Positions 1,900-22,101 of a stretch of DNA of 64,000 nucleotides are shown here, one piece after another (within the stretch, counting starts at the first letter, position 1; every line of letters begins with the position of its first letter). The notes under the pieces are model-generated. The model was not told the DNA's origin. It saw only the letters and a list, made by a program, of their open reading frames with translations, and did not search any database. The DNA lies in NCBI RefSeq assembly GCF_018310535.1, contig NZ_CP074102.1:7750001-7814000 (forward strand), given 5' to 3'. A program made the translations under genes and the position numbers. The DNA comes from Streptomyces mirabilis. GTDB taxonomy: Bacteria > Actinomycetota > Actinomycetes > Streptomycetales > Streptomycetaceae.

Positions 1900-6481
<4,582 letters not shown>

Positions 6482-6494
6482 GGAGCACGACACC

Positions 6495-7457
6495 ATGGCA
6501 AGACACTGGCGAACCGGCGCGGCCGGCCTGGCCGTCCTCGGTCTCACTCTCACCGCATGCGGCGGAGCGAAGGTCGGCGACACCGCCTCCTCCGGCTCCA
6601 AGAGCTCGGGCAAGTGCGGCACCTTCAACCTCGCGGTCAATCCGTGGGTGGGCTACGAGGCGGACGCGGCGGTCGTCGCGTACGTCGCGCAGCACGACCT
6701 CGGCTGTACGGTCAACAAGAAGGACCTGAAGGAGCAGATCGCCTGGCAGGGCTTCGGCACGGGCGAGGTCGACGCGGTCCTGGAGAACTGGGGCCACGAC
6801 GACCTGAAGAAGAAATACATCTCCGGGCAGAAGACCGCCGTCGAGGCGGGCCAGACCGGCAACAAAGGCATCATCGGCTGGTACGTGCCGCCGTGGCTGG
6901 CCAAGGCGCACCCGGACATCACCGACTGGAAGAACCTCAACAAGTACGCGTCCAACTTCAAGACCTCGGAGTCGGGCGGCAAGGGCCAGCTCCTGGACGG
7001 CGACCCGTCGTACGTCACCAACGACGCGGCGCTGGTGACGAACCTGAAGCTGGACTACAAGGTGGTGTACGCGGGCAGCGAGACCGCGCTCATCCAGGCC
7101 TTCCGGACCGCCGAGAAGAACAAGCAGTGGGTGATCGGCTACTTCTACGAGCCGCAGTGGTTCCTGTCCGAGGTGCCGCTGGTCAAGGTGAACCTGCCGA
7201 AGTACACGACGGGCTGCGACGCCGTCGCGGCCAAGGTCGCCTGTGACTATCCCGTGTACGACCTGGACAAGATCGTCAGCGCCAAGTTCTCCACGTCGGG
7301 CAGCCCCGCCTACAACCTGGTGAAGAACTTCAACTGGACGAACGACGACCAGAACACCGTGGCCAAGTACATAGCCCAGGACAAGATGTCCGACGACGCC
7401 GCGGCGAAGAAGTGGGTCGACGCCAACCGCGACAAGGTCGACGCCTGGATCAAGTAG
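6495..7457 (+). CDS. Glycine betaine-binding lipoprotein (OpuAC/ProX family)
   Basis: The 320-aa precursor has a short lipoprotein signal with lipobox LTAC (Cys at about 21). The mature domain resembles OpuAC-type periplasmic-binding proteins (FNLAVNPWVGYEADAAVVAYV, AVLENWGHDD, GIIGWYVPPW). The spaced tryptophans and tyrosines are the kind that form the aromatic cage around trimethylammonium ligands. An AGGAG ribosome site overlaps the permease stop, 9 bp before ATG. It is the last gene of the transporter operon and is followed by a strong hairpin. Confidence 0.92.
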   Translation: MARHWRTGAAGLAVLGLTLTACGGAKVGDTASSGSKSSGKCGTFNLAVNPWVGYEADAAVVAYVAQHDLGCTVNKKDLKEQIAWQGFGTGEVDAVLENWGHDDLKKKYISGQKTAVEAGQTGNKGIIGWYVPPWLAKAHPDITDWKNLNKYASNFKTSESGGKGQLLDGDPSYVTNDAALVTNLKLDYKVVYAGSETALIQAFRTAEKNKQWVIGYFYEPQWFLSEVPLVKVNLPKYTTGCDAVAAKVACDYPVYDLDKIVSAKFSTSGSPAYNLVKNFNWTNDDQNTVAKYIAQDKMSDDAAAKKWVDANRDKVDAWIK

Positions 7458-7536
7458 GGCGCGACGTGGCTCCGTCTCCGGCACCCCTCCGGAGCTGGAC
7501 CGTTGACGCACGAGCGACCCGGAAACCCGCCGGACG

Positions 7537-7570
7537 GGCCCGGCAGGCTGCGCTGGCAGCCTGCCGGGCC
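7537..7570 (+). terminator. Terminator of the betaine transporter operon
   Basis: A perfect 15-bp stem (7537-7551 with 7556-7570) with a GCTG loop lies 80 bp after the binding-protein stop. T-rich DNA follows at about 7578-7594. It separates the transporter operon from the demethylation operon. Confidence 0.85.
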
Positions 7571-7641
7571 TCGTCGCGTTTCGGGCTGTTTTCCGACGTC
7601 ACGGACCCCTTGACACCCACTCCTCGTGACAGGCACATTGA

Positions 7642-10145
<2,504 letters not shown>

Positions 10146-10182
10146 CACGACATCGTCGGCTTCGAGGGAAGGAGTACTGCCA

Positions 10183-11043
10183 GTGACCGCACAGCTGCTC
10201 GACGGCAAGGCGACCGCCGCCGCGATCCGTCGCGAACTCGCCGAACGCGTGGCCAAGTTGACGGCCACCGACGGTCGCCCGCCCGGGCTCGGCACGGTCC
10301 TGGTCGGCGACGACCCCGGCAGCCATGCCTACGTCGGCGGCAAGCACCGTGACTGCGCGCAGATCGGTGTCGCCTCCATCCGCCGCGAACTGCCCGCCGA
10401 TGCCACGCAGGGGCAGGTCGAGGACGTGATCGACGAGCTCAACGCCGATCCGGCCTGCACCGGTTACATCGTCCAGCTCCCGCTCCCGCGCCACCTGGAC
10501 GCGAACGCCGTCCTGGAACGCATGGACCCGGCCAAGGACGCCGACGGCCTGCACCCTGTCAGCCTCGGCCGGCTCGCCCTCGGCGTCGAGGCTCCGATGC
10601 CGTGCACCCCGCGCGGCATCGTCGAACTGCTCCGCCGTCACGACGTGCCGCTCGCCGGAGCGCGGGTGTGCGTGATCGGACGGGGCATCACGGTCGGACG
10701 GCCCATCGGGCTGCTGCTCACCCGCAAGTCCGAGAACGCCACCGTGACCCTGTGCCACACCGGCACCAAGGGCCTGGCCTGGCACGTACGCGAGGCGGAC
10801 ATCGTCATCGCGGCCGCCGGCTCGCCCGGGCTGATCACCAAGGACATGCTGCGCCCCGGCGCGGCGGTCCTGGACGTCGGCATCACCCGCACCGACCACG
10901 GGCTGGTCGGCGATGTGCACCCGGACGCCGCCCAGGTCGCCGGATGGCTCGCGCCGATGCCCGGGGGCGTAGGACCCATGACGCGGGCGATGCTGCTCGC
11001 CAATGTCGTCGAGGCCGCCGAGAGGAACGCGAACGCCGTATGA
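10183..11043 (+). CDS. folD: Bifunctional methylene-THF dehydrogenase / methenyl-THF cyclohydrolase
   Basis: The 286-aa protein carries the FolD signatures: [13 protein letters not shown] around the catalytic Lys and Tyr, [27 protein letters not shown] and [14 protein letters not shown] for NADP binding. It oxidises 5,10-methylene-THF, the product of betaine-derived demethylation, to 10-formyl-THF. GTG 10183 has AAGGAG at 8 bp. Its stop overlaps the glyA start by ATGA. This is probably a dedicated paralogue, because a housekeeping folD is expected elsewhere in the genome. Confidence 0.94.
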
Positions 11044-12350
11044 ACGCGCTGAACACCCCCCTGGCGGAACTGGACCCCGAGGTCCACGCCGCACTCCGCG
11101 CCGAGCTGCACCGCCAGCAGTCGACCCTCGAAATGATCGCCTCCGAGAACTTCGCGCCCTCCGCCGTGCTGGAGGCCCAGGGCTCGGTCCTCACCAACAA
11201 GTATGCCGAGGGCTATCCCGGCCGCCGCTACTACGGCGGCTGCGAACACGTCGACGTCACCGAGCGCCTCGCCATCGAGCGGATCAAGTCCCTCTTCGGT
11301 GCCGGGTTCGCCAACGTCCAGCCGCACTCGGGCGCCCAGGCGAACACCGCCGTCTTCTTCGCCCTGCTGCAGCCCGGCGACACCATCCTCGGCCTCGATC
11401 TCGCGCACGGCGGGCACCTCACGCACGGCATGCGCATCAACTACAGCGGCAAGATGCTCAACGTCGTGCCGTACCACGTCGCCGAGGCGGACAACCTCGT
11501 CGACATGGACGAGGTGGAACGCCTCGCCAAGGAACACCGCCCCAAGATGATCATCGCGGGCTGGTCGGCGTACCCGCGGCAGCTGGACTTCGCGGCCTTC
11601 CGGCGGATCGCCGACGAGGTGGGCGCACTCCTCATGGTCGACATGGCGCACTTCGCCGGTCTCGTCGCCGCCGGGCTGCACCCCAACCCCGTACCGCACG
11701 CCCACGTCACCACCACGACGACGCACAAGACGCTCGGCGGTCCCCGCGGCGGCGTCATCCTCACCAATGAGGCCGGCCTCGCGAAGAAGATCAACTCGGC
11801 GGTGTTCCCCGGTATGCAGGGCGGCCCTCTGGAGCACGTCATCGCCGCGAAGGCCGTGTCGTTCAAGGTCGCCGCGTCACCCGAGTTCGCCGAGCGCCAG
11901 GCCCGTACGCTCGCCGGCTCCCGCATCCTCGCCGAACGCCTCACCCGGGCCGACGCGGCGGCCGCCGGGGTGAAGGTCCTCACCGGCGGCACGGACGTCC
12001 ACCTCGTCCTGGTCGACCTGCGGGACTCCCCGCTCGACGGCAGGCAGGCCGAAGACCTGCTCCACGAGATCGGCATCACCGTCAACCGCAACGCCGTGCC
12101 CTTCGACCCGCGCCCGCCCATGGTCACCTCGGGACTGCGTATCGGCACCCCGGCGCTGGCCACCCGAGGCTTCACGGATGACGACTTCGAAGAGGTCTCC
12201 GATGTGATCGCCCTGGCCCTCCAGCCCGAGCCCGACATCGCCGCCCTGCGCGCCCGCAGCGAGGCGCTGGCCGCCAAGCACCCGCTCTACCCGCACCTTT
12301 CAGAAGCAGAAGCAGAAGCAGAAGCACAAGAAGCCGGAGAAGTCCGATGA
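11040..12350 (+). CDS. glyA: Serine hydroxymethyltransferase
   Basis: The 436-aa PLP enzyme interconverts glycine plus methylene-THF with serine plus THF. It contains [29 protein letters not shown] near the N-terminus and the PLP-lysine motif [15 protein letters not shown] at about residue 225. In this operon it consumes both products of sarcosine oxidation. Its last residues are an (EA)n run encoded by tandem GAAGCA units at 12303-12327, directly before the ATGA overlap with soxB. The run is outside the conserved fold and looks like recent slippage. Confidence 0.95.
12303..12327 (+). repeat. GAAGCA hexanucleotide microsatellite in glyA
   Basis: Four tandem GAAGCA copies encode alternating Glu-Ala at the GlyA C-terminus. 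The repeat keeps the frame and is 20 bp from the coupled soxB start. Confidence 0.8.
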
Positions 12351-13579
12351 GCCCCCGCACCCCCGGCGCCGAGCTCCCCGAGCACCCCGACTGGCTGTGG
12401 CGCACGCCGGAGCCCAAGCGGTCGTACGACGTGGTGATCGTCGGCGGCGGCGGCCACGGTCTCGCCACCGCCCACTATCTGGCGAAGAACCACGGCATCA
12501 CCAACGTCGCCGTGCTGGAGAAGGGCTGGCTGGCGGGCGGCAACATGGCCCGCAACACCACGATCATCCGTTCCAACTACCTGTGGGACGAGAGCGCCGG
12601 GATCTACGAGCACGCGCTCAAGCTGTGGGAGGGACTGGAGGAGGAGCTCGACTACCCGATCCTCTTCTCCCAGCGCGGTGTGCTCAACCTCGCCCACAGC
12701 CTCCAGGACGTCCGCGACAGCGTGCGCCGCGTCGAGGCGAACCGGCTCAACGGCGTGGATGCCGAATGGCTCGACGAGCGGCAGGTCAAGGACGTCTGCC
12801 CGATCGTCAACATCTCGCCCGACGTGCGCTATCCGGTCATGGGCGGCACCTACCAGCCGCGCGCCGGCATCGCCAAACACGACCATGTCGCCTGGGGCCT
12901 GGCCCGCTCCGCCGACGCGGCCGGCATCGACATCATCCAGAACTGCGAGGTCACGGGCCTCGACATCGTCGGCGGCCGGGTCGTAGGAGTGCAGACGACG
13001 CTCGGCCCGATCGCGGCGGGGAAGGTGGCGCTCTGCTCGGCCGGCCACACCTCGGTGCTCGCCGCCATGGCCGGCATCGAACTGCCGCTGCAGAGCCACC
13101 CGTTGCAGGCGCTCGTCTCCGAGCTCCTCGAACCGGTGCACCCGACGGTCGTCATGTCCAACGCGGTCCATGTGTACGTCAGCCAGGCCCACAAGGGCGA
13201 GCTGGTGATGGGCGCGGGCATCGACTCGTACAACTCCTACACCCAGCGCGGCGCCTTCCACATCATCGAAGAGCAGATGTCCGCCGCCCTGGAACTCTTC
13301 CCGGTCTTCGCCCGCGCCCATGTGCTGCGCACCTGGGGCGGCATCGTCGACGTCAGCCCCGACGCCTCACCCATCGTCGGACTCACCCCGGTCGACAACC
13401 TCTACCTGAACTGCGGCTGGGGCACCGGCGGATTCAAGGCCACCCCGGGCGTCGGCTGGGTCTACGCCCACACCATCGCCCACGACACCCCTCACCACCT
13501 CAACGCCCCCTTCTCGCTCGACCGTTTCACCACCGGCGCGCTCGTCGACGAGCACGGCGCGGCCGCGGTGGCCCACTAG
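12347..13579 (+). CDS. soxB: Sarcosine oxidase beta subunit
   Basis: The 410-aa FAD-dependent subunit has the dinucleotide motif [18 protein letters not shown] at about residues 27-44, the SoxB feature [16 protein letters not shown], and KHDHVAWG near residue 176, close to where heterotetrameric SoxB binds FMN through a histidine. It oxidises sarcosine to glycine while the alpha subunit hands the carbon to folate. The start overlaps the glyA stop (ATGA). At about 405 residues its length is normal for SoxB. Confidence 0.94.
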
Positions 13580-13591
13580 GGAGCCGAACCC

Positions 13592-16500
13592 ATGCTGCTC
13601 ATCCCATGCCCCTGGTGCGGGCCCCGTGACGAGGCCGAGTTCCACTACGGCGGCCAGGCACACGTGCCCTATCCCGAGGACTCCGCCGCCCTGACCGACG
13701 AGGAGTGGGCGCGCTACCTCTTCTTCCGCGACAACCCCAAGGGGCCGTTCGCCGAACGCTGGAGCCACGCGGCCGGATGCCGCCGCTGGTTCAACGCGGT
13801 GCGCGACACGGCGACGAACGAGATTCTCTCCGTGTACCGCTCGGGCGAGCCGAGGCCGGACAGTTCCACCCGGCCTGGGCTGTGGGCAGGCGTTCTGCAG
13901 GGCGGATCAGGTGGGCACAACCCACCCACGGACCCGCAGTCGTCGACGGACCCCGCGGGGTCTGGGGCGGCAGCCCCAGTTTCGGGAAGGGGCGGGCTTG
14001 GGGAAGAAACCACTCCCGTCGCCACCCAACCGTTCCGGCTGCCCACCGGCGGCCGAGTCCACCGCGGTGAGCGCCTCCGCTTCACCTTCGACGGTACGCA
14101 GTACGAGGGCTTCCGCGGCGACACCCTCGCCTCCGCCCTCCTCGCCAACGGCGTCATCGAGGCCGGCACGAGCATCAAGCTCGGCCGCCCGCGCGGCATC
14201 TTCTCGGCCGGTGTCGAGGAGCCCAACGCCGTCATCCAGATCGAGGCACCCTTCCCCGAGCCGATGCTGCCCGCGACGACCGTCGAACTGTACGACGGTC
14301 TGGTGGCGAGCAGCCTGCCCGGTCAGGGACGCCTCGCCACCGAACCGGACCCCGCCCGCTACGACGCCGTCCACGCGCACTGCGACCTGCTCGTGGTCGG
14401 CGCCGGACCGGCCGGACTCGCCGCCGCGGCAGCCGCCGCGCGCAGCGGAGCGCGCGTCATCCTCGCCGACGACCAGCCGGAGCTGGGCGGCAGTCTGCTG
14501 GGGTCGGGCGAACTCCTCGACTGGGCGGAAGAGATCGGCGCGCTCCTCGAAGCCGCGCCCGAGGTGCGCGTGCTGCGTCGCACCACGGTCTTCGGCCACT
14601 ACGACGACAACCACCTCCTCGCCGTCGAGCGCCGCACCAGTCACCTCGGCGCCGAGGCCCCGGAGCATGTCTCCCGCGAGCGTGTCTGGCGCATCCGCGC
14701 CCGTCGCGTCGTGCTCGCCACCGGCGCCCACGAGCGTTCGCTAGCCTTCGCGGACAACGACCGCCCCGGTGTGATGCTGGCCGCCTCGGCCCGCGCCTAC
14801 GTCAACCGCCACGGCGTCCTTCCCGGCCGCCACGCCGTCGTCTTCACCACCAACGACAGCGCCTACGCCGCCGCGCTGGATCTCGCGGCGGCGGGCGTGG
14901 ACGTCGCGGCGATCGTCGACACCCGGCCCGAGCCGGGGGAATGGGCGCGCCGTGCCCGGGAGTCCGGGATCGAGGTGCTGAGCGGACACGCCGTGGTCGG
15001 CACCGAAGGCGCCCCGCGGCTCACCGCCGTGACGGCCGCTCCGTACGGGGAGTCGGCAGGGACCCGGGAGTTCGCCGCCGACCTGCTGCTGGTCTCCGGC
15101 GGCTGGAACCCCGTAGCGCACCTGTTCAGCCAGGCGGGCGGAAAGCTGCGCTACGACGACACACTCGGCTCCTTCGTCCCCGGCACCTGCCGCCAGGCCG
15201 TCGAGGTCGCGGGCAGCGCGAACGGCGTCCTCGACCTGGCCCGGGCCCTCGCGCAGGGCGCGGCCGCCGGTGCCCGCGCGATCGAGGCCGAGGGCTACGC
15301 CTCCGAGGCGCCCCGCCTCCCCGAGGTGACCGCCGAACCGCACTCGCCCGCCATGCAGGTCTTCCTCGTCCCCGGCCCCGCCGGCGCACCCCGTTTCGTC
15401 GACCTCCAGCGCGATGTCACCGTCGACGACCTGACCCGCGCGACCGGCGCCGGCCTGCGTTCGGTCGAGCACACCAAGCGCTACACCACGGCCGGCACCG
15501 CCAACGACCAGGGCAAGACCTCCGGGGTCCTGGCCAGCGGCGTCGTCGCCGAACTGCTCGGCGTGGACGTCTCGGCCCTCGGTACGACGACGTTCCGCCC
15601 GCCCTACACGCCGGTCTCCTTCGCCACGCTCGCGGGCCGCGACCGCGGCGCACTGCACGACCCGATCCGTACGACCGCTCTGCATGACTGGCACGTCATG
15701 CACGGCGCCCTGTTCGAGAACGTCGGTCAGTGGAAGCGGCCCTGGTACTACCCGCAGGATGGCGAGGACATGGAGACCGCCGTGCTGCGCGAGTGCGCCG
15801 CCGCGCGCGACGGCGTCGCCTTCATGGACGCCTCCACCCTCGGCAAGATCGACGTACAGGGCCCGGACGCCGCCGTCTTCCTGGACCGCCTCTACACCAA
15901 CATGATGAGCACCCTGAAGGTCGGCATGATCCGCTACGGCGTCATGTGCCACCTGGACGGCATGATCTTCGACGACGGCACCGTCATCCGCCTCGCCCAG
16001 GACCGCTTCCTGGTCACCACGACGACGGGCAACGCGGCCGCCGTACTGGACTGGATGGAGGAATGGCTGCAGACCGAATGGCCCGGGCTGCGCGTCCACT
16101 GCACCTCCGTCACGGAACAGTGGGCCACCGTCGCCCTGGTCGGCCCCCGTTCCCGCGAGGTGCTGGGGACGCTCGCGCCGGCGCTGGCGGTGGACAACGA
16201 CAGCTTCCCGTTCATGGCGTGGCGGGACACGACCGTCGCGGGCGTCGAGGCCCGGGTGTGCCGGATCAGCTTCTCCGGCGAACTGGCCTATGAGATCAAT
16301 GTGTCGCCGTGGGAGGCGCTCGCCCTGTGGGAGGCGCTGTACGAGGCCGGTGCCCCGTTCGGCATCACCCCGTACGGCACCGAGACCATGCACGTCCTGC
16401 GCGCGGAGAAGGGCTACCCGATCATCGGCCAGGACACCGACGGCACCGTCACTCCGCACGACCTCGGCATGAGTTGGGCGGTGTCGAAGAAGAAGCCCGA

Positions 16501-16840
16501 CTTCATCGGCAAGCGCTCCTACGCCCGCGCCGACGCCGTCCGCCCCGACCGCAAGCACCTGGTCGGCCTGCTCCCGGAGGATCCGGGCGCCTTCCTCCCC
16601 GAAGGCACGCAGCTGGTTGCTGACAGCGTGCTGCCCGCCCCGCCCGTCCCGATGCTCGGCCACGTCACCTCCAGTTACCGCAGCGCGGCGCTCGGCCGGA
16701 CCTTCGCCCTCGCCCTGGTCAAGGGCGGCCGGGACCGCATCGGCGAGCGGCTCTACGCCGTCGCGCGCGACCGGCTGGTTCCGGTGACCGTCGCAAGCCC
16801 CGTCCTCTACGACCCCGAGGGAGCCCGCCGCGATGGCTGA
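13592..16840 (+). CDS. Sarcosine oxidase delta-alpha fusion (SoxD-SoxA)
   Basis: A 1082-aa frame joins two subunits normally encoded separately. Residues 1-90 are SoxD, a small zinc protein with ligands at about C6, C9, H59 and C63 (CPWCG, HAAGC). Residues 91-143 are a Gly/Pro/Ser-rich linker. Residues 144-1082 are SoxA: an N-terminal ferredoxin-like part (GDTLASALLANGV, IKLGRPRGI), an NAD-binding fold (LLVVGAGPAGLAAAAAAARSG), and a C-terminal GcvT-type folate domain (SFSGELAYEINV). I see no in-frame ATG, GTG or TTG near the SoxA border, so separate translation is unlikely without a frameshift. The linker DNA resembles a Streptomyces intergenic repeat. Confidence 0.85.
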   Translation: MLLIPCPWCGPRDEAEFHYGGQAHVPYPEDSAALTDEEWARYLFFRDNPKGPFAERWSHAAGCRRWFNAVRDTATNEILSVYRSGEPRPDSSTRPGLWAGVLQGGSGGHNPPTDPQSSTDPAGSGAAAPVSGRGGLGEETTPVATQPFRLPTGGRVHRGERLRFTFDGTQYEGFRGDTLASALLANGVIEAGTSIKLGRPRGIFSAGVEEPNAVIQIEAPFPEPMLPATTVELYDGLVASSLPGQGRLATEPDPARYDAVHAHCDLLVVGAGPAGLAAAAAAARSGARVILADDQPELGGSLLGSGELLDWAEEIGALLEAAPEVRVLRRTTVFGHYDDNHLLAVERRTSHLGAEAPEHVSRERVWRIRARRVVLATGAHERSLAFADNDRPGVMLAASARAYVNRHGVLPGRHAVVFTTNDSAYAAALDLAAAGVDVAAIVDTRPEPGEWARRARESGIEVLSGHAVVGTEGAPRLTAVTAAPYGESAGTREFAADLLLVSGGWNPVAHLFSQAGGKLRYDDTLGSFVPGTCRQAVEVAGSANGVLDLARALAQGAAAGARAIEAEGYASEAPRLPEVTAEPHSPAMQVFLVPGPAGAPRFVDLQRDVTVDDLTRATGAGLRSVEHTKRYTTAGTANDQGKTSGVLASGVVAELLGVDVSALGTTTFRPPYTPVSFATLAGRDRGALHDPIRTTALHDWHVMHGALFENVGQWKRPWYYPQDGEDMETAVLRECAAARDGVAFMDASTLGKIDVQGPDAAVFLDRLYTNMMSTLKVGMIRYGVMCHLDGMIFDDGTVIRLAQDRFLVTTTTGNAAAVLDWMEEWLQTEWPGLRVHCTSVTEQWATVALVGPRSREVLGTLAPALAVDNDSFPFMAWRDTTVAGVEARVCRISFSGELAYEINVSPWEALALWEALYEAGAPFGITPYGTETMHVLRAEKGYPIIGQDTDGTVTPHDLGMSWAVSKKKPDFIGKRSYARADAVRPDRKHLVGLLPEDPGAFLPEGTQLVADSVLPAPPVPMLGHVTSSYRSAALGRTFALALVKGGRDRIGERLYAVARDRLVPVTVASPVLYDPEGARRDG
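13862..14020 (+). repeat. Repeat-derived linker inside the soxD-soxA frame
   Basis: This part encodes no conserved SoxD or SoxA residues. It contains the palindrome GACCCCGCGGGGTC (13949-13962) and a stem CTGGGGC (13962-13968) with GCCCCAG (13973-13979), followed by a TTTCGGGAAGGGGCGGG-like run. From memory this is the layout of a common G/C-rich intergenic repeat of Streptomyces. It probably lay between the two genes or entered there, removing the stop. Confidence 0.6.
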
Positions 16841-17435
16841 CACCGCCCTTACCATCCCGCGCCGCAGTCCCCTGGCGCATGCCGCCGACCGCCTGGCCGC
16901 CGCGACGCGCACCTCCGGGGGCGCGGTCCGGCTGGCCGAACTCCCCTTCCTGGCCCAGGTCAACGTCCGGCTCGACGCCAAGGGAGCGGCAGCGGACGCC
17001 GTCGGGCTCGCGCTGGGCCTCCAGCTGCCCCTCGAACCCAACACCGTCGTACGCGCCGGCGAGCTGACCGCTGTGTGGCTAGGCCCCGACGAATGGCTGG
17101 TGGTGGGCCCGACCGGCGGTCAGCGGGACCTGGAGAGCCGGATCAGGGCGGCGAGCGGCGACGAGCCCGTGGCTGTCATCGACGTCTCCGCCCAGCGCAC
17201 CACCCTCCTCGTCACGGGTCCACGCGCCCGTGACCTGCTGGCACATGGCTGCCCCCTGGATCTGCACCCGCGTGTCTTCGGAGCCGGGTGCTGCGCCCAG
17301 ACCACCCTGGCCCGCACACAGATCGTGCTGGTCGCCAGGGACGAACCCAAGGCCGGATTCTGGGTACTGGTCCGTTCGTCCTTTGCCGGCTACCTGACGG
17401 ACTGGCTGCTGGACGCGGCGGCGGAATACGTCTGA
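16833..17435 (+). CDS. soxG: Sarcosine oxidase gamma subunit
   Basis: The 200-aa protein resembles SoxG: RSPLAHAADRL at the start, AELPFLAQVNVR, a core WLGPDEWLVVGP shared with GcvT-like folds, and ARTQIVLVARD near the end. Gamma is the structural fourth subunit of heterotetrameric sarcosine oxidase. The start overlaps the soxDA stop by 8 bp. It ends the operon; I found no clear terminator behind it. Confidence 0.9.
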   Translation: MADTALTIPRRSPLAHAADRLAAATRTSGGAVRLAELPFLAQVNVRLDAKGAAADAVGLALGLQLPLEPNTVVRAGELTAVWLGPDEWLVVGPTGGQRDLESRIRAASGDEPVAVIDVSAQRTTLLVTGPRARDLLAHGCPLDLHPRVFGAGCCAQTTLARTQIVLVARDEPKAGFWVLVRSSFAGYLTDWLLDAAAEYV

Positions 17436-18225
17436 ACGAGCTCAACAGGGTGTGATATCCACAGGAGGTGGGAGGCGTCCGCGACCGACAGGCCGATGCT
17501 GTCAGGATCCGTCGCTGTGCCCGCTGCGGCGCCTCTGTGCACCCGACCTCTGCGGAGACGCTCCGCCCGCGCCCGCGCATCGGTGCCGCACGATCCCGCT
17601 CCCTGGTTCGCCCTCTTGCGTGCAGGAAGCGCGCCTGAAACCGGCAGGGGACTCCGGGCTGTGCCCCGCTAGGGAGACCGAAAGGCGTGCGGTGACCGGG
17701 GGCGGCGAAAGACGCCACTGGAGGGTTGGTTGGTTCAGGCTCATCCCCGGTTTCGGGGCCATGCGAAGGCATGGTGTCACCCCGGGCAGGATGGTTGTTG
17801 CGAGGGGTTCAATAGCGAACCAGTAACTGCTTAGTAGCTGTTGACCTGCAAAATTAAGAGCGATCTAGGGTCCGGCGACGCAGTAGGGGCCAACGAGGGA
17901 CTGATGAGAGTCCGGCCGGGTCGGCAAGGGCGTGCCTCGCGAAGGTGATGTCGAGGCGGCGACGGCGTAATCCATCCAGGCTCGCAGCAACGTCATCAAA
18001 GCCGGGATTCTGCTCGCTGTGTGGATCTTTGCAGTGACCAGCGTGCGCGGCCTCGACCGGCAGCGGGTCGAGCGACGAACCGCCACGGCCGGGCTTGAAG
18101 GAGACGCCGGCTGAGGTATGAGCGTGGTAACTCTGACCACCGAGTGCGGCCAAAGGGCGTTGGACTGTGCCGAACGGCTCGGTGCGGCAGACCAGACCAG
18201 GTCGACCCGACCGTCCGGCGGGGAT
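17436..18225. other. Non-coding, partly structured region
   Basis: No frame in this 790-bp stretch has convincing coding character: all six frames have poor third-position G/C bias and no family motifs. A block of four hairpins occupies 17701-17821. An AT-richer segment (about 17815-17870) and possible remnants of mobile DNA follow. Confidence 0.55.
17701..17821. other. Run of four short hairpins
   Basis: The stems are GGCG (17701-17704) with CGCC (17713-17716), CCCCG (17745-17749) with CGGGG (17754-17758), CCATGC (17759-17764) with GCATGG (17769-17774) over a GAAG loop, and GGTTC (17806-17810) with GAACC (17817-17821). This density of perfect small stems outside a gene suggests a structured RNA or the end of a mobile element. 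I could match no known RNA family. Confidence 0.4.
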
Positions 18226-18324
18226 GCGGATTTGCACTCCCTGAAAGGGCGGGCAGCCAAGGCCACGCGGCCGGTGCCGATCCCTCCTGTGCTCGTCCGC
18301 ATGTTGCGCGAGCGCGTGAGCCTG
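18226..18324 (+). pseudogene. Tyrosine integrase remnant
   Basis: One frame reads ADLHSLKGRAAKATRPVP then IPPVLVRMLRERVSL. It closely resembles the segment before the catalytic HxxR box of actinomycete tyrosine integrases (LKxRAxKxxRxVPIPPVLVxLLR). Neither the N-terminal part nor the R-H-R-Y active-site region follows, so this is a scar of an integrative element. It abuts the decayed glycosidase gene. Confidence 0.6.
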
Positions 18325-18326
18325 TT

Positions 18327-18401
18327 CTTACGCTCGACGAGCACGCCCTTGAGCTGGCGAAGCGCCTTTACGACCTGCGGCAGGCCGGCATCCCGTTCTG
18401 G
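18327..18401 (+). other. Short coding-like fragment of unknown origin
   Basis: Another frame reads LDEHALELAKRLYDLRQAG, which has a protein-like helical pattern, between the integrase scar and the glycosidase scar. It may belong to a recombinase or transposase, but 25 residues are too few to tell. Confidence 0.25.
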
Positions 18402-18404
18402 CCG

Positions 18405-19386
18405 GCCTCCGCCGAAGAGCGCACGGGACTGCTTCTTCTTCGCGTCGAGCGTGGCCACGCCCTGGAGGGTGTACTGCTGGTTGGGGTGCGGGGCGGTCAC
18501 CTGTACGGTGCGGCCGGACATCTGGCCGTAGGCGTCGAACAGCCACCACTGGCCGTTCGACGGCCGAGTCGTTGACGTTGATCGGCAGTGGGCCGATCCC
18601 CACCTCCTGCTCCCACTGCCGGTACTTGGCCACGCTCGTGCGGACCGCGGCGGGGCTGGACAGCTCGTGCCAGGTCATCACGTCCGGGACGACGTCGTTG
18701 GCCTCGGCGTACTGCAGGAAGCCCTTGACCTGGTCGAAGAGGAGAGAGGTGTTCGGGCCCGCGATCCGGGCGTCCGGGTCCTGGTCCTTGATGAGGTGGT
18801 AGACCTCTTTCCAGGCCGCGAAGAAGTACTGCGGGTCGTCGAGCCAGGAGACGTTGTTGTAGCTCCACGTGCCCGAGCCGAACATGTTCCCCTCGGGCTC
18901 GTTGAAGGGGACGTAGACGACGTGGTCCTTATAGCCGCCCATCGTCTTGACCTGGGCGACCTGCTTCTTGATCTTCTCCTTGAAGTCCGCGAGCCGCTCG
19001 GGGCCACTGTCGCCCGGCCACTGGTACGAAAATCCGCGGTAGATGTCGGTCATGTAGATGTAGACGTCCTTGCCACCCGAGTCCACGAACGGCGGCAGGA
19101 CCTCCAGCGCGTCCGCCCCCGGGTGCTGGGGGCCGTCGTGCGCCTTGGTGGACAGGGTGCGCAGGTGCATGCCCTCGATGAGGTTGCGGCTCGGTGCCCC
19201 GTCACCGTAGATCCCGTACAGCGAGCCGGCGGCGCCGCCGTGGAAGGCGCCGGTGTCGGCGGCCAGATCGATGACGAGCCGTTCCGGGTCCGCGGCGTGA
19301 GCGGTGCCTGCGGAAGGGGCGGCGAGCAGGGTGGCGAGGACCGCCGCCACCGTGGCACCGGCTCCCGTCGTTCTCTTTCGTCGCAC
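18405..19386 (-). pseudogene. Secreted glycoside hydrolase, decayed
   Basis: From GTG 19386 (GGAG at 6 bp) the product has a signal peptide with an AHA-A type cleavage site. A clan GH-A-like catalytic domain follows, with VVYVPFNEPEGNMFG carrying the acid/base glutamate. At PLPINVND (about 18565) the frame fails. The second-nucleophile region is missing, and the sequence resumes in another frame as NGQWWLFDAYGQMSG, TAPHPNQQYTLQGVATLDAKKKQ and ALFGGG, ending at 18405. An internal deletion plus frameshift, and a truncated 3' end, leave no working enzyme. It is divergent from the LacI-type regulator, with a perfect operator at its promoter. Confidence 0.8.
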
Positions 19387-19432
19387 TGAGGTCTCCGTGA
19401 TTCCCTGCGGGTTCGGACGTTGGACGAAGAGG

Positions 19433-19448
19433 GTCGAACCGGTTCGAC
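19433..19448. promoter_or_regulatory. LacI-type operator 1
   Basis: GTCGAACCGGTTCGAC is a perfect 16-bp palindrome with the CG centre typical of LacI-family sites. It is 47 bp upstream of the decayed glycosidase start. Confidence 0.8.
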
Positions 19449-19552
19449 GGAACCTAGCAGCGCGGAAATCCACCAGCAATACCTCCGACACAGGGAGTGG
19501 CATCAGCTCCTCCCGGATTCCAGGGCTATTACGAGAAGTGTCATGAGAGGTA

Positions 19553-19581
19553 TTGACAGTGGCTGGGGTTGTTCCTACCTT
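19553..19581 (+). promoter_or_regulatory. Sigma-70-type promoter of the regulator gene
   Basis: TTGACA (19553-19558) and TACCTT (19576-19581) are separated by 17 bp. Operators 2 and 3 lie just downstream, where bound repressor would block initiation or elongation, so autoregulation is likely. Confidence 0.6.
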
Positions 19582-19590
19582 CACTTCACG

Positions 19591-19602
19591 CGAACCGGTT
19601 CG
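19591..19602. promoter_or_regulatory. LacI-type operator 2
   Basis: CGAACCGGTTCG repeats the core of operator 1. A further half-site, CTGGTTC, follows at about 19608. Confidence 0.75.
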
Positions 19603-19628
19603 ACAACTGGTTCAGAGTCTCGGCGTCA

Positions 19629-19642
19629 TCGAACCGGTTCGA
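19629..19642. promoter_or_regulatory. LacI-type operator 3
   Basis: TCGAACCGGTTCGA is a perfect palindrome 17 bp upstream of the regulator start codon and 38 bp from operator 2. Confidence 0.78.
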
Positions 19643-19659
19643 CCTTCCAAGGAGTGCCC

Positions 19660-20691
19660 GTGAACATCGGTGAGATCGCCCGCCGGGCCGGTGTCTCGCG
19701 GAGCACCGTGTCCTACGCGCTGAGCGGCAAGCGCCCCGTGTCGGAGGACACCCGGCGGAAGATCCAGCGCGTCATCGACGAGCTGGGTTACCGCCCCAAC
19801 GCCAGTGCGCGCGCCCTGGCCAACGGCCGGACCAACACGATCGGCCTGGTCTTTCCGCCGGCCGGCAACCACTACACCGGGATGCAACTCGACTTCATCG
19901 GCAGTGTGGTGGAGGCGGCCGCGGCCCAGGACTACGACGTGCTGCTGTCACCCAGCGGCGTCGACAGCGACCGCTCGTTCCAGCGGCTGCTGGGGGAGCG
20001 GCGGGTCGACGGCGCGATCCTGATGGAGATCAGACTGGAGGACGACCGGGTCGATCACCTGGCCGCCCTCGGCTTCCCCTCCGTCGCCATCGGCCGGACC
20101 GCGCATCCCGAAGGCACCTGGTGGGTCGGCCTGGACCACACCGCGCTGGCGGCGGCGTGCGTCCATCACCTCGCGGACCTCGGCCACCGCAGGGTCGCCT
20201 TCGTCAACCGTCCCGAGCAGTTGCTGCGCGCCGGATACGAGTCGGCCCACCGCGGCCTCGACGGTTTCACCAAGGCCGCGGCCGAACGCGGGCTGACCGT
20301 CCGGACGTACTGCTGCGGGGACGACGCGGCATCCGGCCAGGCTTGCCTCGAACAGATCCTGCAGGACGACCCGGCCACCACGGCCCTGGTCACCCTCAAC
20401 GAGGCCGCGCTCGGCGGCCTGTACCGCGGGCTGTCCCAGGCCGGCCGTCATGTACCGCGCGACTTCTCCGTCACCGGAGTCGTCGCAGGCCGGTGGGCGG
20501 AGACGGTGACCCCGCAGCTCACCGCGGCGGACGTACCGGCAGAGGAGATGGGCCGACACGCCGTCGACCTCCTCGTCGAGCGGCTCGACCACCCCGACGC
20601 GCCGCCCCGGCACCACCTGCTCGCGCCCCCCATCTCGCTGCGCGCCAGCACAGGGCCCGCCACCGGCAGGCCGTCCACCGAGGCCCCCTGA
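19660..20691 (+). CDS. LacI-family transcriptional repressor
   Basis: The 343-aa protein has the LacI helix-turn-helix and hinge at its N-terminus (NIGEIARRAGVSRSTVSYALSGKRPVSEDTRRKI, YRPNASARALANGRTNTIGL). A periplasmic-binding-protein-like sensor domain follows (HHLADLGHRRVAFVNRPEQL). GTG 19660 has AAGGAG at 6 bp and is the only start that keeps the HTH at the N-terminus. It probably senses the sugar taken up by the downstream ABC system and represses it, itself and the decayed divergent gene through the CGAACCGGTTCG sites. Confidence 0.93.
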   Translation: MNIGEIARRAGVSRSTVSYALSGKRPVSEDTRRKIQRVIDELGYRPNASARALANGRTNTIGLVFPPAGNHYTGMQLDFIGSVVEAAAAQDYDVLLSPSGVDSDRSFQRLLGERRVDGAILMEIRLEDDRVDHLAALGFPSVAIGRTAHPEGTWWVGLDHTALAAACVHHLADLGHRRVAFVNRPEQLLRAGYESAHRGLDGFTKAAAERGLTVRTYCCGDDAASGQACLEQILQDDPATTALVTLNEAALGGLYRGLSQAGRHVPRDFSVTGVVAGRWAETVTPQLTAADVPAEEMGRHAVDLLVERLDHPDAPPRHHLLAPPISLRASTGPATGRPSTEAP

Positions 20692-20853
20692 CCTCGGGCC
20701 CCGGCACCACCCTCTGACCACGGATCACGGGCATCCCCGTCCCCCCTCACCGCACGGCTCGCCCGCACCACTCGCCGTGGCTGTTCGGCATGCTCCCTTC
20801 CCCCCCTCGTCACCCTCCCTCGGCACACCCGTGCCAAAAACGAAGGACGCGCA

Positions 20854-22101
20854 ATGCACAGCTCCCTCAGACGGCTCCGCCTCACCGCCGCGACCGTGAC
20901 CGCCCTCGCCGTCGCCGGCACCGCCACCGCCTGTTCCTCCGGTGCGGGCAGCACCGGTACCAAGGCCGCGGACAGCGGCACCTACACCATCTGGGACCCG
21001 TACCCGCAGTTCGACAAGAGCTCCGCGTGGGCGAAGCTGCTCGATGCCTGCGGCACCAAGGCCGGGGTGAAGATCAAGCGGACCGCGTTCGACACCAGCG
21101 ACCTGGCGAACAAGGCGCTGCTGGCCGCCCAGCAGGACAACTCCGCAGACGTCCTCATCGTCGACAACCCAGTGGTGTCGACCTTGGCCGAGGCCGGAGT
21201 CCTCACCACGACCGAGGACAACAAGCTGGACACCTCGAAGGCGGACACCAACCTCCTCGCGGCCGGACAGTCGGGCGGCAAGACGTACGGCACGCCGATC
21301 GGTGCCAACACCCTCGCCCTCTACTACAACAAGAAGGTGCTGAAGCAGGCCGGGGTGGACATAGCCTCGGTCAAGGACTGGAAGTCGCTGACGGCGGCGC
21401 TCGCGAAGGTCAAGAAGGCGGGCAAGAAGGGCATCACGTTCTCCGCGATCGGCACGGAGGAGGGCACCTTCCAGTTCCTGCCCTGGTACTGGGGATCGGG
21501 GGCCCAACTGACCGTGCTCGACTCCGGGCAGGCCGTTTCCGCGCTGTCGCTGTGGAAGGACTGGCTGAAGAACGGCTACGCCCCCAACTCGGTCCTCAAC
21601 AACACGCAGACGACCAGCTGGCAGGAGTTCGCGACCGGCGACTACGCGTTCAGCGAGAACGGCACCTGGCAGCTCGCCAACGCCAAGAAGGCCGGCTTCG
21701 ACTACGGGGTCATCCCCGTCCCCGCCGCCGACGGCGGTAACGCGGCCGCCCCGACCGGCGGCGAGTTCGTCACCGTCCCGGTCCAGGGCAAGACCGACCG
21801 CTATGCCACATCCCAGAAGATCGTGACCTGCCTGACCAGCACCGACAACCTCCTCACCACCGACACCACGCTGTCCTACGTGGCACCCACCACCGAGGTC
21901 CAGGACAAGCAGGTCGCGGCGAACGCCGAGCTGAAGCCCTGGGTCGACGCGGTCAAGGCGGCCAAGGGACGCGCCAGCGACGACCTGGGCACCAAGTACC
22001 CGAAGATCTCGGAACAGTTGTGGAAGGCGGTCCAGTCGGCCCTCAGTGGTTCGCAGTCGCCGAAGGACGCGCTGGCCGCAGCGCAGTCCGCCGTCAAGTA
22101 G
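20854..22101 (+). CDS. Sugar ABC transporter substrate-binding lipoprotein
   Basis: The 415-aa precursor has a lipoprotein signal with a TACSS lipobox (Cys at about 27). The mature part is a family-1 extracellular solute-binding protein (TYTIWDPYPQFD; YGTPIGANTLALYYNKKVLKQAG; FSENGTWQLANAKKAGFDYGVIPVP). It captures an oligosaccharide or monosaccharide outside the membrane for the two permeases encoded next. No ATPase gene accompanies them, as is common where a shared MsiK-type ATPase is used. The ligand is unknown. Confidence 0.92.
   Translation: MHSSLRRLRLTAATVTALAVAGTATACSSGAGSTGTKAADSGTYTIWDPYPQFDKSSAWAKLLDACGTKAGVKIKRTAFDTSDLANKALLAAQQDNSADVLIVDNPVVSTLAEAGVLTTTEDNKLDTSKADTNLLAAGQSGGKTYGTPIGANTLALYYNKKVLKQAGVDIASVKDWKSLTAALAKVKKAGKKGITFSAIGTEEGTFQFLPWYWGSGAQLTVLDSGQAVSALSLWKDWLKNGYAPNSVLNNTQTTSWQEFATGDYAFSENGTWQLANAKKAGFDYGVIPVPAADGGNAAAPTGGEFVTVPVQGKTDRYATSQKIVTCLTSTDNLLTTDTTLSYVAPTTEVQDKQVAANAELKPWVDAVKAAKGRASDDLGTKYPKISEQLWKAVQSALSGSQSPKDALAAAQSAVK

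Follow-up and report, generated by a model that had tools for sequence, protein, structure and literature searches.

The stretch analysed here, called the window throughout, comprises 64 kb (64,000 nucleotides) of Streptomyces mirabilis DNA, positions 7,750,001-7,814,000 of a larger contig (9.1 Mb) in a genome of 9.6 Mb. On one strand it carries, in this order, genes for a GcvT-type oxidase, folD, glyA, soxB, soxDA and soxG (Table 1). The product of the first gene is putatively a dimethylglycine-oxidase-like FAD oxidase. Both soxB and soxG adjoin soxDA; soxB scores above its cut-off, and soxG exceeds the Pfam cut-off while falling below that of NCBIfam (TIGR01375, 127.6 bits against 143.95). 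The roughly 0.9 kb 3' of soxG (17440-18330) contains no called gene and no Rfam match up to E 0.5, and the minus-strand ORF that follows (18328-19584) matches nothing in Pfam, nor anything in NCBIfam up to 1e-15. An Rfam scan of window positions 6000-21000 returned a single match, inside soxA and below the gathering score, which we took as chance.

Table 1. Genes and features of the sox locus, in window coordinates.
Feature	Position	Strand	Support or remark
FAD oxidase with GcvT-like domain	7659..10145	+	NCBIfam matches all below cut-off
folD, methylenetetrahydrofolate dehydrogenase/cyclohydrolase	10183..11043	+	NF010789 472 bits, cut-off 401
glyA, serine hydroxymethyltransferase; overlaps soxB	11040..12350	+	NF000586 593 bits
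soxB, beta subunit	12347..13579	+	TIGR01373 641 bits, cut-off 529
soxDA fused frame, 1082 codons	13592..16840	+	ORF call
SoxD (delta) part, residues 1-86	13592..13849	+	PF04267 3-83, TIGR01374 3-86 (above cut-off), PDB 1vrq_D/2gag_D
Linker, residues 87-146; matches no family	13850..14029	+	no in-frame stop or ATG/GTG/TTG
Left repeat module, TGTGGGCAG-type palindrome	13870..13942	+	dispersed copies in same-genus genomes G004, G006, G008
Right repeat module, GGGGTCTGGGGCGGCAGCCCCAG hairpin and TTTCGGGAAGGGGCGGG tail	13953..14012	+	copies in 8/12 other same-genus genomes
SoxA (alpha) part, residues 147-1082: Fer2_4, FAD/NAD, A3 and GcvT domains	14030..16840	+	Pfam, NCBIfam, PDB
soxG, gamma subunit; overlaps soxDA stop	16833..17435	+	Pfam SoxG 89 bits, cut-off 21

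A preliminary description of this DNA had reported that soxD and soxA form one uninterrupted 1082-codon frame, and such a frame is indeed present, encoding a protein with a calculated mass of 115.4 kDa. The SoxD part contains Cys6, Cys9, His59 and Cys63, which we take to be zinc ligands; all four are invariant in 50 fused proteins chosen from 120. The SoxA part has the complete domain set of the heterotetrameric sarcosine oxidase (Fer2, FAD/NAD, A3 and GcvT), with the Fer2_4 match beginning at residue 160 and a TIGR01372 score of 1270 bits (cut-off 1164; best stretch residues 244-1081). In alignments to solved structures, the delta subunit covers residues 1-93 and the alpha subunit residues 152-1082. 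The linker between the two parts had been placed at 13862-14020 with 53 residues; it exists, and proved slightly wider, at about 60 residues. In-frame start codons of soxDA occur at residues 1, 25, 70 and 81 and then not until residue 225, which falls within the Fer2 (2Fe-2S-type) domain, so the earlier statement that no SoxA start lies in the linker also holds.

In order to follow the fusion across genomes, we scanned species-representative genomes and took the best 80 of 578 confirmed matches as loci. Four without a SoxD hit were left out: L033, L045 and L047, which begin at contig ends, and L037, a rearranged or misassembled locus. In the 76 loci that remain from these best 80 of 578 matches, SoxD and SoxA lie in one stop-free frame in 46 and in different frames in 30; with the window's own locus, the fused set numbers 47. 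In the L037 record (Streptomyces mexicanus, L037:2600-3060), the linker breaks by a poly-C run and another reading frame lies upstream, consistent with misassembly or rearrangement at the repeat. Because L037 breaks there, the soxDA linker region can evidently be misassembled or rearranged.

A SoxA tree of 77 rows places the window within a clade of 45 rows that holds no unfused row and consists of 44 rows plus Actinacidiphila glaucinigra L051. Two further fused rows, L032 (Actinacidiphila) and L036 (Streptantibioticus), lie outside it, and the distribution of fused and unfused states on the tree needs three changes. With all 47 fused rows constrained together, p-AU was 0.119, so a single origin is not rejected.

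Within the genus, 13 of 61 genomes, the window's own included, gave a match at E up to 1e-100. An orthologue (83-100% identity) occurs in 9 of the 61 and is fused in all nine. Additionally, six of the 61 contain a second SoxA type (63-66% identity) for which the match starts at residue 140 or 141. In four of these (G001, G007, G022 and G024), SoxD is listed as a stretch of its own that contains one or two TGA, and the other two (G049 and G071) are known from the start of the match alone. The second type resembles the fused one in that its SoxA and, where listed, its SoxD match the same query, and differs from it in that no fusion was seen. Genomes G001 and G049 hold both types together. Similarly, S. 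spiralis is represented by both, fused SoxDA and the unfused SoxD/SoxA pair (loci L019 and L076); where the two types occur together, SoxA identity is about 63-67%.

We also searched 5.8 billion proteins with the SoxD-linker part and obtained 578 matching proteins. Among the best 120 of these, 119 also carry SoxA-type domains and one, P0027, is SoxD only; since the length limits of the search (0.55-1.75x the fusion length) admit no separate SoxD, 119 of 120 is no census. Database names listed for the matches are delta or alpha family protein, or ferredoxin. The open frame is thus conserved across a large clade, as expected of the natural fusion first proposed from the window, and on comparative sequence grounds the soxD-soxA fusion is confirmed as a genuine single frame.

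The junction itself was compared between the two states. The stop of soxD overlaps the start of soxA in all 30 unfused loci, with the sequence ATGA or GTGA in 28 and TGATG in two, and this overlap is presumably the ancestral junction. In fused genes the end of SoxD (often ...GEPRP or GEERP) and the beginning of SoxA (...QPFR) are retained and the stop/start overlap has been lost. We propose that this overlap was replaced by DNA of dispersed, palindrome-rich intergenic repeats, whose direction and phase at the junction leave the reading frame open.

The 47 linkers have 27 different lengths, ranging from 27 to 135 residues; the ends of three (L023, L028 and L029) were extrapolated because their SoxA hits begin at query residues 5, 12 and 16. 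None of the 47 contains an in-frame stop. Stops occur in 9 and 38 of the 47 in the other two forward frames and in 35, 28 and 15 in the reverse frames, and shuffled linkers gave a mean of 28 of 47 with a stop, the lowest being 20. By parsimony, linker length changed at least 38 times, every change being a multiple of three; the corresponding chance of (1/3)^38 assumes independent changes and is a guide only. Thirty-five of these at least 38 changes fall within the main clade without L051, and because that clade is defined by the SoxA tree and not by frame, the test within it is not circular. Openness alone is weaker evidence than the whole-codon changes, since another forward frame is also mostly open (the one with a stop in 9 of 47).

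Amino acid sequence, in contrast to frame, drifts almost freely. Across 13 hand-chosen close pairs, dN/dS was ~0.3-2.4 in the linker, 0.13-0.26 in the first 200 codons of SoxA and 0-0.43 in SoxD, and no column between P89 and R149 is invariant in the 50 fused proteins. Codon-position G+C also differs, at 0.82/0.69/0.75 for the linker against 0.73/0.52/0.94 for soxA. With whole-codon length changes, no in-frame stops and nearly free amino acid drift, it follows that the frame is selected and the linker serves as a spacer. These comparisons show a linker evidently under frame selection with relaxed amino acid constraint, and no other observation argues as strongly as this selection that the fusion would be translated.

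The DNA from which the linker is built recurs elsewhere. Parts of the window linker are found at eight further places in its own genome. Copies are also present in 8 of the 12 other genomes searched from the same genus, and none of eight genomes from other genera has one. For the right module, the window's own genome holds weaker matches to the module's parts, and its TTTCGGGAAGGGGCGGG tail is single-copy there at up to 1 mismatch. With up to 3 mismatches allowed, each of two linker motifs that we tried has a single occurrence in the 64 kb window, in the linker itself, where 0.00 would be expected by chance. Among the copies resembling the window linker, 35 of the 36 fetched (34 of 35 distinct places, L136 and L082 being the same place) are intergenic, as judged by a simple codon-score caller trained on the window's genes rather than by a standard gene finder; it finds the sox operon genes correctly and was used because raw ORFs are uninformative in G+C-rich DNA. 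The sole copy inside a called gene lies on the strand opposite to that gene.

Many fused linkers contain a head module (CAGCCCGTCCGGCGTTTGAGGACGAG) together with a hairpin (GGGTCTGGGGGCGGAGCCCCCAG) and a G-rich tail of one of two kinds, and every module hit in a linker is on the coding strand. At up to 2 mismatches the head module has 56 copies in the window's own genome, all 56 intergenic, and the reversed pattern has none. A profile built from 30 own-genome copies matched 36 of the 47 linkers at E up to 0.01, on one strand only; it had no match on the linkers' other strand or in reversed linkers. The controls with reversed sequence, the other strand and chance expectation led us to reject a chance low-complexity match. 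When any module is counted, 39 of the 47 linkers show repeat evidence, and no recognised repeat was found in the remaining eight (L012, L018, L020, L027, L032, L036, L051 and L077). A further nested palindrome is present in nine of the 47, including L077; allowing up to 2 mismatches, it has no copy in the window's own genome. The head motif is unsupported as the source of the window's own linker, where the profile has no hit and other modules match.

We then surveyed the head motif in 22 genomes, allowing up to 2 mismatches. The L032 genome has 59 copies (mostly variants, 2 exact) and the L036 genome 6, and those of the unfused loci L039, L040, L042 and L043 have 3, 4, 12 and 0, so the repeat family is not confined to fused genomes. 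No copy was found in the genomes of the fused loci L012, L018, L020 and L051. Because L012, L018 and L020 lack a copy, fusion persists without the head motif in three Streptomyces.

The palindromic G/C blocks of the linker had been likened to Streptomyces intergenic repeats and a search for further copies suggested; both ideas fared well, with dispersed copies in the window's own and 8 of 12 other same-genus genomes, nearly all examined ones intergenic. These matches support the reading that the linker DNA is repeat-derived and that intergenic repeats probably became coding.

Whether the repeat also created the fusion, as first proposed, is a separate matter. A repeat could have brought the two genes into one frame, or it could have moved into a linker that was already there, and both orders of events stand because three fusions outside Streptomyces show no repeat. 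For the main clade we infer that repeat insertion, rather than later invasion, caused the fusion. The alternative is that fusion came first, by deletion or indel at the overlap, and that repeats then invaded a neutral linker repeatedly and in frame. This order has somewhat under even odds in our estimate. L032, L036 and L051 are fused without a detectable repeat, and the L032 linker has no hit even though its genome holds 59 head-motif-like places. Additionally, modules differ between lineages, and nine of the 47 linkers contain the further nested palindrome. Against this, the same three loci may be separate fusions, given the three changes on the tree and their different junction sequences, and the other fused rows number 44 with the window, of which 39 show repeat evidence. 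Thus, the first half of the original proposal, that a repeat became coding, stands, and the second half, that it created the fusion, is a candidate explanation: L032, L036 and L051 are fused without a detectable repeat, the tree needs three changes and a single origin is not rejected.

If the frame is translated throughout, delta and alpha would be made as one delta-linker-alpha polypeptide in Streptomyces of the fused clade. The enzyme should then assemble from three chains (beta, delta-alpha and gamma) because delta and alpha are one polypeptide, with the linker acting as a passive, flexible, sequence-indifferent spacer that would tie delta to alpha one to one. Our main reading, to which we give a probability of about 0.83, is that delta and alpha form a single polypeptide in a three-chain sarcosine oxidase, the junction overlap having been replaced by a spacer from an intergenic repeat. 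Full-length SoxDA is probably made and left uncut, the three-chain enzyme is probably active and the spacer is predicted from its sequence to be disordered. A structure model of SoxDA (50-row alignment) had a mean pLDDT of 42 and a pTM of 0.32, and no residue from 1 to 159 reached 50. Since pLDDT is also low in SoxD and in most of SoxA, and confidence is poor throughout, the model is uninformative on the linker.

The main alternative for the protein products is internal initiation at the GTG of codon 81. More broadly, two proteins would still be made if SoxA started internally, for example at this codon within SoxD, or if the linker were cut post-translationally; we consider this improbable. 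Codon 81 (window 13832) is GTG in 39 of 47 fused loci compared with 5 of 30 unfused loci (mostly GTC), and from SoxD residue 61 onwards each of the 47 fused loci offers one or more candidate starts in frame. However, the conservation of codon 81 is unexceptional, ranking 32 of 60 Val columns, so that despite its unusual codon frequency we rejected the idea of a conserved start at this codon. No start lies in the linker of the window, and 18 of the 47 loci have none from residue 87 on. A ribosome-binding-like sequence is found at only 9 of 122 candidate starts, although this test is weak because only 6 of 30 unfused loci have one before the SoxA start region.

Lastly, a sequencing or assembly artefact, in which a missed stop or frameshift joins two normal genes, is practically negligible: one of the 80 loci, L037, breaks in the linker beside poly-C with no soxD hit upstream, but the same open frame is found in 46 loci of other genomes, in a protein 99% identical from genome G032 and in 11 proteins of 1082 residues (P0001, the window's own, to P0011) with 95-100% identity over residues 1-145. 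Because the frame is intact in these 11 near-identical proteins and in G032, a missed frameshift or stop is excluded, and the check proposed at the outset revealed no frameshift; sequencing error was thus rejected as the source of the fusion.

The repeat is also read in frame in genes unrelated to sox. We searched the translated repeat (ARPAFEDEA...GVEGAEPLQDGTGRGGGGE) among proteins of 0.55-1.75x query length and obtained 120 hits, 108 SoxDA (some partial) and 12 others. These 12 are predicted proteins, six LuxR/AAA regulators and six trypsin-like NTPase proteins (Pfam scan of 6 of the 12). The repeat is therefore dispersed, with both intergenic and in-frame copies. The same repeat peptide occurs in P0128, P0150, P0178, P0181, P0183 and P0216 and in P0129, P0146, P0168, P0223, P0227 and P0228, from two Streptomyces families.

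For the LuxR/AAA family we compared 120 proteins, 20 of which could not be parsed. Among the 100 parsed homologues, 31 have a 9-10-residue loop (such as ADGERVRPYD) where others carry long inserts. A repeat signature, a loose text pattern for which false positives are likely, was found in 16 of the 100, 15 of them with 51-265 residues, and inserts of at least 60 residues that lack the signature occur in 24 parsed proteins. We lean slightly towards the view that Streptomyces has repeatedly drawn protein linkers from its palindrome-rich intergenic repeats. On this view the repeats, read in a direction and frame without stops, would have spread into junctions between genes and into surface loops, having fused soxD to soxA and enlarged both the LuxR/AAA loop and a stretch of the trypsin-like NTPase proteins, so that a single dispersed non-coding family would provide unrelated proteins with the same flexible peptide.

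Copies on plasmids were observed as well. Of 19 matched Streptomyces plasmid records, 18 have an annotated helix-turn-helix gene over the right-hand module, and the L151 record lists no gene at the match; the proteins concerned are database predictions. In one record that we opened, the module starts, as judged by eye, in the frame of the soxDA linker and leaves it after a one-base difference. In L150 (L150:998-3053; NZ_CP033582.1), the right-hand repeat lies beside parB, inside a stretch rich in Pro and Ala that carries VNAVNA peptide repeats. The main repeat was found on two plasmid records, in one of which (NZ_CP023408.1:88641-88731) it lies under an annotated creatininase-family gene.

Gene fusions are usually viewed as finished products. 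Here the joint is traceable, because the place at which relatives have two overlapping operon genes is occupied by dispersed intergenic DNA, which illustrates how apparent junk repeats can end up inside working proteins. The result is a selected but nearly sequence-free spacer, represented by 47 measured natural variants of 27 to 135 residues. With these it can be tested directly what becomes of non-coding repeats in proteins and how much linker variation a multi-cofactor enzyme tolerates.

In the openly licensed literature, we found no paper on a SoxD-SoxA fusion and none on Streptomyces coding repeats. Passages on repeats in PMC4681348 and PMC12306157 name no such Streptomyces element, and the main text of a survey of REP sequences is without the word Streptomyces (PMC3733652). 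The linker repeats are similar to REP sequences in being short and palindrome-rich with many intergenic copies, and differ in that the Streptomyces modules are combined to ~100 bases. A parallel in way of working is offered by the Rickettsia palindromic elements (RPE), which are described as palindromic repeats lying in frame within ORFs (parts of PMC10969869 and PMC3733652). In both cases palindromic repeats are dispersed between genes and also lie in frame within proteins, those of unrelated genes included. Unlike RPE, the repeats reported here belong to a GC-rich actinomycete, comprise several module families and sit at the junction of two formerly separate genes; a phenomenon known from Rickettsia is thus extended to a soil actinomycete.

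The enzyme itself is best compared with the heterotetrameric sarcosine oxidase (TSOX, SoxBDAG; 1vrq/2gag), with which the S. mirabilis locus shares all subunit domains and the usual gene order after glyA. The published arrangement, as given in the relevant part of PMC3691474, is one of separate soxBDAG genes in the order glyA-soxBDAG-purU. In S. mirabilis, folD lies upstream, and delta and alpha are one polypeptide with a 60-residue linker, three genes standing for four. In place of the four separate chains of the heterotetramer, delta and alpha share one frame, which makes this a three-gene variant.
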